32,826 nucleotides of DNA from Mollicutes bacterium (lineage in GTDB: Bacteria; Bacillota_I; Bacilli_A; Mycoplasmatales; MT37). The DNA lies in contig JARVCM010000014.1 in NCBI GenBank assembly GCA_029976705.1, positions 1 through 32,826 on the forward strand, written 5' to 3'. Shown here one piece after another: positions 2,587 to 32,826 of this stretch (its first letter is position 1; each line of letters opens with the position of its first letter). Below the pieces are notes generated by a model. It was not told where the DNA came from. It saw only the letters and a list, made by a program, of their open reading frames with translations, and did not search any database. A program made the translations under genes and the position numbers.

Positions 2587-3141
2587 ATGACTTTTAATAA
2601 AAGAATTTTTTTCATTTCATTTTTGGTTTTTTTTGTTATTGCTTTACCGCCATTAATTGTTATTCCTTTACTTTTAACAGAAAAAAAAGAAACATTAAAG
2701 TATAACATTGTTGATTCCTTTAGTAATATTTCTAAAAAACATTATGTTCATCATTATTGAGATATAGAAAAATTAAAAGAAGAAATTAAAGAAAGAAAAA
2801 ATTTTGTTGTTTATTATGGCACACCACGATGTCCAGCATGTAAAGAAGCAACTAAAAAAATTAATAATAATAGTGAATTTAAAAATAAAATTAAATCTCT
2901 ATATGAAAAAACCAAACAAGCAAAATGGGTGTTTTTTTATGATAACAAAAGTACAGGTAGTGAAGAAAGAAAAAATTTTGACAAGGAATTAAATAAAATT
3001 ATTAAGGAAAGTGACCAAAAAGAAATTGAAGGAGTCCCTGCTTTCATTTTTTTTAAAAATGGTAAAGTCGTAGATACATTGACTGGAATTGACGATGACC
3101 TTGAAAAGCTTTTAAATAAAATTGATTTACATTTTGAATAA
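2587..3141 (+). CDS. Membrane-anchored thioredoxin-like protein (CPAC motif)
   Basis: ATG 2587 to TAA 3141 with TGA=Trp: MTFNKRIFFISFLVFFVIALPPLIVIPLLL (TM) ... NFVVYYGTPRCPACKEATKKI ... EGVPAFIFFKNGKVVDTLTG. C-x-x-C and cis-Pro (GVPAF) positions fit a thioredoxin fold. Confidence 0.85.
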
Positions 3142-26206: not shown

Positions 26207-27190
26207 ATGAAAATAATGAGCAAAAAATCTCCAAAGATCCCGACACCACCACAAGCAAAAATCAATGGAGTTTATAGGCTGTATATTAGTGATCAAGACA
26301 TAGAATATTCCTATATTGGCATTAGTATTGATTGCAACGCTCGTATTAAAAAACATTTAAATGAAATAAAAGTACATTTTAATGGCCCCAAATTACCGAA
26401 TTTTATCCTTCAAATGTTTTTGTATAGCATCCCTACTAGTGCCCTATATATTAAGTGGGTGATGTTTATGCTTTATTATTCCAAAACACCAGAAGATATT
26501 AAATTTGAAATTCTTGATCAAACTTCAAGCAAAAACAGACACGAATTAGAAATTTTGGAAATGAAATATATTGCTAAATATGACTCAGAAAAAAATGGAT
26601 TTAACGGGATTTGAAGCAAAGCAATTATGTATGAAGCAGAACAAAATTTTCCTAGTAGAAAAGCAGGCAAAAGAAAACATATTAAAAAATTATTTGATTT
26701 ACAAGAAAAACGCAACAAAATCACAATAAAATGATTATTAGCAAATGAACCAAAATTACAGAAAATAAAATGTTTTTGATTATTGTTTAATTTAAAAATA
26801 ATTTTAGCCAAATACGATAAAAACAATGGTTTTGATGATCAACATGATGTTTTAAAAACAATGGTTAATTTATGAAAAGATCAAAAAATAAAAAGTTTAA
26901 ATAAAATGAAAAATAAAATAAGTTCGTTTCTTAAAAACAAAACAGGAATTGGTTATAAATATAAATTTGTTTGATTTAAAATTTGCAATACCATTTTGAA
27001 AAATTTAATGACTAATAAGTTTTTTTTACATAAGAGGCTAACTCAACAATTTATTGACTATTGATCTATTAAGTACAAAAGCAAGAATGACGTTTCAATT
27101 GATATTATGGATGAAACTTTTATTTGTTGACAAATTTTTGCTGTTGAAGCAAAAATAGAAAAATTGATTAAGCAAACGAAGGTAAGTTAA
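26207..27190 (+). CDS. GIY-YIG nuclease-domain protein, otherwise unrecognised (327 aa; start may be 26216 or further upstream)
   Basis: NGVYRLYISDQDIEYSYIGISIDCNARIKKHLNEIK...KFEILDQTSSKNRHELEILEMKYIAKYDSEKNGFNGI: Tyr, YIG, Arg, His, Glu and Asn positions of the GIY-YIG fold all present; C-terminal ~190 aa Lys/Trp-rich without known motif. Confidence 0.75.
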
Positions 27191-29539: not shown

Positions 29540-32500
29540 ATGTTTGTTATGTTTGTTTTCAAAAGGAAGTTTTTTGATTTTAAGTTAATTCTTTTTTTGT
29601 TATTTTTTGTATTTCTACTTTTTTCCACGGTTATTTTTTTTACCAACTCTTCAACAAATACTTCATTTTCTCCAGTTCACGAAAAAACTTCAAATCTAAA
29701 CAAAAAACGACAATCAAATTTGGCAAAACTTAAAACCTTGTATCATGCTTTGAAAAACGAATCAAATCAAGAAACTTTGCGAAACATCAAGGCATTAACA
29801 GTCAATCAAATTGTTGTTAACAAGAGAAATTACAACATTAGATACTTAAAAAATTTAAAACCTTTGGAATTACCGCTTCTTCTTCTTAACAAACATGCAA
29901 AAAACGAATTGAAAATATTAGTTAGAAATAATGTTTCTTTTACAGTTTTACAAACTACAGTACAAAACATCAAAAACACCCAAGCAGCCCTGGATGTAAA
30001 ACTTAAAACCTTGTATCATGCTTTGAAAAACGAATCAAATCAAGAAACTTTGCGAAACATCAAGGCATTAAGAACTAAGACAATTCTTATTGATAAAAAA
30101 ATATACGACATTCGTAACTTGAAAACTTTTAATCTTTCGAATTTACCACTTTTTGCTAGACTTAACATACGTATAAAAACCGAGTTAAAAATATTAGTTA
30201 GAAATAATGTTTCTTTTACAGTTTTACAAGCTACAGTACAAAACAAAAAAAATACCTGAAACAAAAACTGAAAACAAAGACGAAAACCAAAGAAATATTC
30301 TTGTCAACTTACTAGTGTTAGATTTCCGGGACGTCGTGCACATTTGTTAAAAAGAGGAAAAACATTATTATCAAAACTTAATTTACCAATAAATCGTGCT
30401 CTTTTGTTAAAAATTAAAGATTTGACAACTGATAAAATCAATGTTTTAAATAGACGACATAAACTTGTTGACTATAACATTACCGCTTTAAAAAATTTTG
30501 TTTTACGAGCAAAATATTTTCAATTAAAGCAAGAGGATAAGAAAGAATTGAAAAAATTAGCATTTTGTCAACTTTGATGATCTGACTTTAGAAAAGCGGT
30601 TAACGATTTTGAGATTGATCAAATTATAGCCTACGACAGCCACATTTCAGTTAATAGTCAAACGGGACAAAAATTAAAAATCTTTTTAACCGATTTGTTG
30701 AAAGCTGAAAACATCAAAGTTTTTGAACAATTGAAGCAACTTGGTCTTTCAAAAATTATGATTAATAATGCTTTTTATGAAATTGATGCCTTAAAACAAT
30801 TTGATGTGTCATCAAGTTTTAAACACACCACCGAACTTACGATAGATGAGACGGTAAAGGATTTTTTGCTTACTGCTCAATCAGATTCATGACCAAAAAA
30901 CACACCTAAACAACTTCTTAATTTGGCGATTAATGATGTTAAAGTTGCTCAAATTAAAATTGCAATTCGTGAAACAATTAAAAAAGAGTTTGCTAATTTA
31001 TTCCATAATTTTAGAAAACCAGCGAAAGGAGTTATTTCTAAAATTAAATTTCTTAAACTTGATGAACTTGTTATTGGTGAAAAGAGTTACAGTGTTAAAG
31101 CCTTAAAGAAATTTAATTTTGCTGATAAAAAAGCGGATTTTGATATTTTGGAAAATAAAGAAGTTCAAGAAGACAAAGTCACAGTCACAGACACAAATAA
31201 GGGCAAAGACACCAAAGAAGTTGAGGAATTAAAGGTAGAATTGACCGCCTTTGTTAAGGAAGATATCAGAATGCCCGAAATTGTTGAAGTAGTGGAAAAA
31301 ACAATAGAAGTTACTTATTCTTCTCCTGTTAGGTCTTCACCGCTTATTGATAAAACCCCGCATTTAGACGCTTTTGTTCGAGATTTCCAAAACGTCTTTT
31401 TTAAAGAAGATGTTTTAGACGAAATGGTCAGTTGAAATCTGGAAACAATTAATATTGATGGTAAGGATTATCAAATTGGAGAAATAAAAACATTTGATTT
31501 TTCAAAAGTAAATACATTTAATGATATTTCAAATGCTGGAGTAAAAACACAATTAAAATCGTTGGTTAACGATAATATTAATGCTGGCAAAATTTGATTA
31601 AGTATGACAAATGCAAAAGCTAATGTTTTGTTTAATGAATTTAAAAAACCTGCAAATAAAATTTCTGTTTTAGACGAAATGGTTAGGTTAGGTATAACAT
31701 CAATTCAAATTGATGATTTTATGTATGAAATTGATGATACATCAGTATTTGATTTTACGACAGTTGTTAATTTTAAAGAACTTCTGGAAGATAATGATGT
31801 GAAGGGAGAACTTGTAACGCTAGCAGGACAAAATATTAAGTTTGAACAAATTATCAATTTTATACGAATTCGTAAAAATTTTACTGATTTTTTGACTGAA
31901 TTTGTAAAAGCAGAAAATAAAAGTACTTTAACGGATTTAAAAAATCTTGAAACTAATAAACTTAAAATTAATAATTTTGAATATTCAGTCAACGAATTAA
32001 AAAAGGTTGTTGTTTCGGATGATGTTAGTCATATTGATTTTTATATAAATTCAGAATCAGCAGAAAAACAACAATTTGATCTTTTATTTGCAAAAGATGT
32101 CACTTTTGCTGCTTGAAAAGCAGCAATAGAGGCCCAAAAACAAAAAGAGGTTCTTAATGCTAACCAAGAACTTTATAAGCAATTTTATATCCAATTAAAA
32201 AATGAAGTAAATCAGACAACTTTAAAGAATCTTAAAGCATTAAAAGCTAACACGATCAATATTCAAAACAAAGATTACAACATTAACAATTTGAAAACTT
32301 TAGATCTTTCTGCTTTGCCACTGTTTGTTGGACTTAACAAAAATGTTAAAACGGAACTAGAAGCATTAGTAAAAAATAACATAGATTTTGAGATTTTAAA
32401 AACTAATGCCAAAGCCAAAAAAGACATCCAAGATCAAGCGGATTTTGAAGAAAAAACAGAAGCCTTGTTTGACGAATTGAAAGACGAAGCAAATCAAACA

Positions 32501-32826
32501 ACATTTAACAATCTTAAAGCATTAACAGCTGACAAAATCAATATTAAAGGAACTGATTACGACATTAACAATTTGAAAACTTTAGATTTTGGAGTTATTG
32601 ATGAATTTAGTAAATTAGTAGATGCTGATATTAGAACGGAACTAGAAGCATTAGTAAAAAAAGACATAGATTTTGAGATTTTAAAAACTAATGCCAAAGC
32701 CAAAAAAGACACCCAAGATCAAGCGGATTTTGAAGAAAAAACAGAAGCCTTGTTTGACGAATTGAAAGACGAAGCAAATCAAACAACATTTAACAATCTT
32801 AAAGCATTAACAGCTGACAAAATCAA
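29540..32826 (+). CDS. Very large modular repeat protein with an N-terminal membrane anchor (3' end outside window)
   Basis: ORFs 29540, 30344, 30695, 30923 and 31604 are all in one frame and join through TGA; the frame remains open to the window end. N-terminus KRKFFDFKLILFLLFFVFLLFSTVIFFTNSS is a TM/signal anchor; at least 10 copies of a module containing xIxIxxxxYxIxxLKxF and KxELxxLVxxxIxFxxL. Confidence 0.88.
29725..30071 (+). repeat. 74-bp exact direct repeat (29725-29798 and 29998-30071) inside repeat modules 1 and 2
   Basis: aaaacttaaaaccttgtatcatgctttgaaaaacgaatcaaatcaagaaactttgcgaaacatcaaggcattaa in both copies, offset 273 bp (91 codons). Confidence 0.95.
32351..32826 (+). repeat. 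Near-identical 285-bp-period direct repeat truncated by the window end
   Basis: 32351-32541 and 32636-32826 align with about three mismatches (acggaactagaagcattagta...aaagcattaacagctgacaaaatcaa). Confidence 0.95.

Follow-up and report, generated by a model that had tools for sequence, protein, structure and literature searches.

What is the giant protein whose gene runs off the end of this stretch of DNA, and what might it do for the bacterium that carries it? The window, that is, the whole stretch analysed, is 32,826 nucleotides long and constitutes an entire contig (C7) of an assembly that is 82% complete. The assembly has 445,436 bp on 21 contigs, exactly the figures published for Ca. Thalassoplasma callogorgiae (24.9% GC; PMC11535214 Table 1), a symbiont of the deep-sea octocoral Callogorgia delta, and is assigned to that species on these statistics. 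The main text of the genome paper leaves repeat proteins unmentioned (PMC11535214). A sequence-only reading of the window had proposed a giant protein made of diverged copies of one unrecognised module, and we followed up that proposal here.

Under translation table 4, a single open frame on the forward strand extends from an ATG at 29540 to 32824, comprising 1,095 codons with eight TGA codons read as Trp and no stop before the contig end, as the earlier reading of this frame had it. The encoded protein starts with one hydrophobic helix, a transmembrane helix or signal anchor at residues 16-34 (29585..29641, by hydropathy scan and sequence) with the basic stretch KRKFFDFK ahead of it, in keeping with the membrane anchor that had been suggested. 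Since the window is the whole contig, the 3′ end of the gene is absent because the assembly cuts it. The last 107 bp are an exact copy of 32435-32541, 285 bp upstream (126 of 127 positions agree over the final 127 bp); the contig thus ends within a direct repeat, which accounts for the break and makes the module count of this gene a lower bound only. A search for overlapping contig ends that might complete the gene gave no partner for the right end of C7.

An iterative profile seeded from the motif detected ten full modules and, after them, 31 residues that open an eleventh. As a control for circularity, we used an independent profile of 53 modules, all from contigs other than C7. This profile recovered the same ten modules with i-E values of 4e-7 to 1.5e-18 and the partial eleventh at 1e-3, while 1,000 shuffled versions of the window protein yielded zero domains at E<=1. 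The claim of at least ten copies therefore stands, and all of the motif copies that had been quoted were found, for example QIVVNKRNYNIRYLKNL, which starts at residue 90 (29807). Self-similarity lags of the protein peak at 95, 94 and 91, so that a period of about 90 aa is recovered in the middle modules. The proposed period of 85-95 aa holds for most modules; the exceptions are modules 4 and 5, which an inserted loop extends to about 105-109 aa.

The array lies entirely on the forward strand. Module 1 occupies 29723..29974 (independent-profile i-E 8.5e-16), and module 2, found by the same profile and nearly identical to module 1 over codons 1-25 and the last 22, occupies 29996..30250. A basic spacer (WNKNWKQRRKPKKYSCQ...GRRAHLL; 30251..30349) separates module 2 from module 3 (30350..30607; 3.9e-7). 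Beyond it lie module 4 with its long loop (30665..30979; 1.7e-8), module 5 with a long charged loop (30980..31306; 5.4e-8), module 6 (31355..31618; 4.5e-16), module 7 (31610..31876; 1e-13), module 8 (31871..32140; 6e-12), module 9 (32165..32422; 2.4e-17) and module 10 (32447..32707; 1.5e-18). The start of module 11 (32732..32824) is cut by the contig end, and its DNA repeats the opening of module 10 exactly.

Structure prediction, which had been suggested as a check on the modules, gave confident models both for one module and for three in tandem. With 29 aligned modules as input and module 10 as the query, AlphaFold2 returned a model with pLDDT 93 and pTM 0.81, consisting of helices at residues 2-12 and 14-24, strands at 30-33 and 36-39, and helices at 60-71 and 76-85. 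The predicted module fold is thus helix-helix/beta-hairpin/helix-helix, with high confidence. The three-module model, for which window modules 8-10 (module 8 being the first) were aligned with 15 other disjoint three-module stretches, reached pLDDT 91.5 and pTM 0.75, and in it helices of about 32 residues (79-110 and 173-204) run continuously over the module borders. With similarly high confidence, tandem modules are predicted to be joined through their helices, as a putative rod rather than loosely strung beads. The hydrophobic core and fold are kept at about 20-30% identity between modules. Foldseek comparison with the PDB and with the viral models of BFVD gave a best E of 1.6 or worse and TM <=0.34.

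Known repeat families likewise gave no match for the module, as the sequence-only reading had anticipated. Pfam produced nothing meaningful for the whole protein at E<=10, for 29 modules at E<=1 or for eight family proteins at E<=1, and NCBIfam contained no family at a meaningful E. We rejected the Pfam matches to UvrA_inter (0.019) and DUF7892 (0.041), which were below cut-off and not repeated from module to module, and also the PHROGs matches, which were spread over 41 different families at E>=0.0037 and mostly concerned a single module each. A match of the C6 protein to Clostripain (E 0.0014, below cut-off) was not accepted either. A profile search of PDB sequences gave a best E of 0.14, tblastn against phage and plasmid records gave no match, and single-protein scans of genome contigs and viral contigs revealed no relative, as did a scan with ValRS. 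Profile searches covered three overlapping genome sets, 320 from the order, 395 from the class and 392 from the phylum (about 1,090 others), and returned no convincing relative. Marginal matches in seven other order or class genomes (E 1e-4 to 1e-3) were rejected, each being a single partial copy that did not improve with an 82-module profile. Lineage restriction, which had been named as a sign of novelty, holds among the genomes searched and is provisional, since the nearest of these are distant (SecA <=48% identical, none from the same family, Oceanoplasmataceae).

Several side observations touch on the same genome and its published sister. Residues 865-956 of a frame at C8:2-3142 (L009) weakly match Pfam EAL (E 0.021) across two repeat modules. 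In the sister symbiont, the highly transcribed, unannotated protein U1 has an EAL-like region from which use of cyclic di-GMP was inferred (PMC11535214). As a lead only, that region might match a similar module and not be a true EAL domain. Within the window, a 327-aa frame at 26207-27190 (+) has a start resembling GIY-YIG (GVYRLYIS...SYIGIS) and no Pfam match at E<=0.1; Ca. Thalassoplasma callogorgiae is reported to have no homolog of the GIY-YIG protein U2 (PMC11535214).

The window gene is one of many. A module profile counted 76 copies genome-wide on about ten contigs, and an ORF-based profile counted 82 modules in 18 open frames, which take up 27.0 kb, 6.1% of the assembled sequence; both counts see nothing on C11, a 2.8-kb contig that is all N. 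Family genes are often broken by contig ends. A recurring plan emerges: an N-terminal transmembrane helix (TM), an optional M41-like peptidase domain, modules, a cap module, a C-terminal TM and a basic tail. The gene at C1:49341-51779 (about 806 codons) has seven modules and a TM at each end. A frame of 1,207 codons on C9 has 13 modules and a C-terminal TM and is cut on its 5′ side, and one of 1,011 codons on C2 is cut at both ends. Starts with an N-terminal TM occur on C6, C7, C8 and C21, and ends with a C-terminal TM and basic tail on C8, C9, C12 and C21. Judged by eye, a cap variant (..LYxLVNxKDQxxKI..) forms the final module before the C-terminal TM on C6, C8, C9, C12, C21 and, in part, C1. 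Fragmentary copies with stops or frameshifts are also present (C21:858-2239, C15, C1:60264 and C17). C2 and C12 overlap, but within the repeat, and their join is uncertain; the join of C8 to the right end of C3 is clean, with a 123-bp overlap. Across the latter join lies a 537-aa member (C8:13466-14740 plus the right end of C3) with an N-terminal TM, two modules and a C-terminal TM, followed by a basic, aromatic tail of ~250 residues that has internal repeats (KDRIKKFF) and is predicted to be intracellular.

Two genes carry an M41-like domain. The one on C21 (5662-7632, L007) has HEAGH after its N-terminal TM (Pfam M41 E 0.1; 14.6 bits in the genome search) and runs on into four modules. The one on C20 (L093:820-1962) has HEGGH (M41 E 1.8e-4) and a C-terminal TM, and the profile found no module in it. 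A GGHxAE motif is also present in both, and their M41 scores of 12.9-21.8 bits are under the curated cut-off of 29.9; an ordinary M41 match of 187 bits lies elsewhere, on C1. Both proteins are membrane-anchored, have no AAA part and are predicted to lie outside the cell. Should the M41 matches be genuine, the two domains would be FtsH-type peptidases that work outside the cell and on their own, with the AAA portion missing.

On which side of the membrane do the modules lie? The stretches before the N-terminal TM and after the C-terminal TM are basic, an inside signature at both ends, so the modules are predicted to be outside. No signal peptidase I was found above cut-off in this 82%-complete genome (best 8.5 bits); thus the N-terminal TM may be an uncleaved anchor, with both ends of the protein kept in the membrane as a loop. 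From these features we infer export and an outside location of the modules. Given the N-terminal helix and the C-terminal TM with basic tail in relatives, the most economical reading is that the window protein is an extended surface protein, which supports the earlier suggestion to that effect. The window also encodes, at 2587-3138 (+), a membrane-anchored thioredoxin-like protein with a CPAC motif (Thioredoxin_2 E 1.9e-7) that possibly acts on exported cysteines.

The DNA of the modules records how they have changed. Among exact blocks of >=24 bp shared by modules, 74 of 75 are in register, including a few shared between different contigs, as expected under duplication and homologous exchange. 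Modules 1 and 2 are identical at 24 of codons 1-25 (helices 1-2) and at 19 of the last 22 codons (helices 3-4); of the 29 codons of the hairpin and loop, 6 are identical, 19 differ nonsynonymously and 4 synonymously. This is consistent with a constant helical frame and a changing hairpin. The pattern is not universal: shared blocks on C2 and C9 include the hairpin. Among pairs of related modules the median pN/pS is ~0.7, a value that, with few sites and one genome, relaxed constraint fits equally as well as diversifying selection.

Several functions are conceivable for such proteins. The modules could be a mechanical stalk only, lifting functional domains, whether M41-like peptidases or unrecognised N-terminal ones, off the membrane and binding nothing, and both the M41-like domain after the N-terminal TM in two genes (C21 HEAGH, C20 HEGGH) and the continuous inter-module helices fit a spacer. 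However, most members, the window gene included, have no other recognisable domain, and both M41 matches are under the curated cut-off. A passive spacer also leaves the divergence of hairpin and loop beside near-identical helices unexplained, and we regard a pure stalk as unlikely. A genome reduced to 445 kb still retains large, uninterrupted frames of 806 to 1,207 codons, and the module core and fold are kept at about 20-30% identity; this makes it quite improbable that the family is in decay, mostly pseudogenes and tandem-duplication leftovers of little function, even though some copies are fragmentary and pN/pS is high.

We would also give little credence to cytoplasmic or inner-membrane cytoskeletal rods that shape the wall-less cell. 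The helical tandem layout resembles spectrin-type scaffolds, elongated or filamentous cells were seen in the coral (PMC11535214), and in the C8/C3 member the C-terminal TM is followed by a long basic tail, but the basic residues that flank both TMs place the modules outside. The habitat bears on another alternative. Mollicutes in Callogorgia delta were imaged as aggregates amid the collagen fibres of the mesoglea, in images made with general bacterial probes and assigned mainly to the sister Ca. Oceanoplasma callogorgiae (PMC11535214). Such sessile aggregates speak against gliding, and so against a motility leg like Gli349 of Mycoplasma mobile, in which a motor inside the cell pulls on a long, flexible surface protein. 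That a giant mollicute surface protein is N-terminally anchored here would suit this idea, Gli349 being a leg of approximately 97 nm (PMC6935860). The present proteins, however, form a multigene family dispersed in the genome and possess C-terminal TMs, and a search of the order's 319 other genomes gave no convincing module match, although among these M. mobile is perhaps not included. A leg of this kind seems to us very remote.

On balance, and with moderate confidence, we favour the reading that the window gene is a member, cut short by the assembly, of a multigene family of membrane-anchored extracellular rod proteins that form a host-contacting, changeable surface layer. The N-terminal hydrophobic segment would route the chain via Sec, leaving the modules outside, and, judging from charge, the C-terminal TM and basic tail seen in sister genes would anchor the protein in the wall-less membrane. 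The last helix of each module is predicted to continue as the opening helix of its neighbour, so that many modules together would make a stiff rod. In-register recombination would share the helical frame among copies while hairpin and loop diverge, and for this reason the rods are most likely a changeable surface layer. This layer would probably touch the mesoglea, the matrix of the host, and neighbouring cells through numerous weak contacts, and some members may carry an M41-like peptidase domain on the outer side. More tentatively, and in our view rather doubtfully, the modules may constitute a new fold family that serves as a recombining surface-diversity system, in which >80 modules swap hairpin and loop in register on a constant helical frame to make host-binding or immune-evading rods, some with extracellular M41-like peptidases.

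No mollicute genomes are more reduced than those of this symbiont family, which also lack glycolysis, yet ~6% of this one is spent on a single family of giant proteins. Such a retained investment points to needs in the coral mesoglea, where immune amoebocytes have been discussed (PMC11535214): holding on to the matrix, aggregation or evasion of amoebocytes. The family is probably a changeable surface coat that grips the host. On the more tentative reading above, a recombining repertoire would give an extremely reduced symbiont changeable rods for host binding or immune evasion. The module is in any case an unclassified domain whose predicted fold is unmatched in the PDB and in a viral protein model library, and it is a defined, expressible test object for symbiont-host contact in a deep-sea coral.

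How does the family compare with known systems? The best reading by analogy is that these are rod-shaped adhesins or coat proteins outside the cell that undergo recombination, and they may work like Embp/Ebh or the ScARPs without homology to them. Staphylococcal Embp/Ebh has an export signal, a rigid rod of helical repeats, a C-terminal TM, a long helix that joins bundles in the FG-repeats, and repeats of low mutual identity, and it is a rod with many weak fibronectin sites (PMC7587433); these structural traits resemble what is seen or predicted in the coral symbiont family. It differs in that its F- and FG-repeats, of 125 or 170 aa, are helical bundles, whereas the coral symbiont module has a beta-hairpin, and in belonging to a cell-walled host, the coral symbiont being wall-less. 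Correspondingly, FIVAR, GA and DUF1542 are absent (whole protein at E<=10; 29 modules and eight family proteins at E<=1), and the modelled helix-helix-hairpin-helix-helix is not a helical-bundle repeat and has no PDB fold match at E<1.

Closer in lineage, ScARP/SARP1 of Spiroplasma citri is likewise a mollicute multigene family; its proteins have an N-terminal signal, exposed repeats and a C-terminal TM, and their part in adhesion and entry has been demonstrated (PMC3485318). A similar layout is predicted here from the N-terminal TM of the window gene and the two TMs of related genes. The ScARPs are plasmid-borne and have 6-8 sarpin repeats of 39-42 aa, against a period of about 85-95 aa here, and tblastn of the window protein against a plasmid collection gave no match. 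Gli349 is, similarly, a giant surface protein of a mollicute, with a length of about 97 nm (PMC6935860). It differs in being a single gene within a gliding machine and in having a terminal foot. Its ~100-aa repeats are predicted to be beta-rich. The BspA-like or DUF285 proteins are also repeat-rich mollicute surface proteins and differ in module length and predicted fold; scanning the protein against Pfam at a threshold as loose as E<=10 gave neither DUF285 nor a BspA-type LRR, which upholds the earlier view that the module is distinct from DUF285. Thus, giant modular surface proteins are already known; what is new is the module, its predicted fold and the scale of the family in so small a genome.
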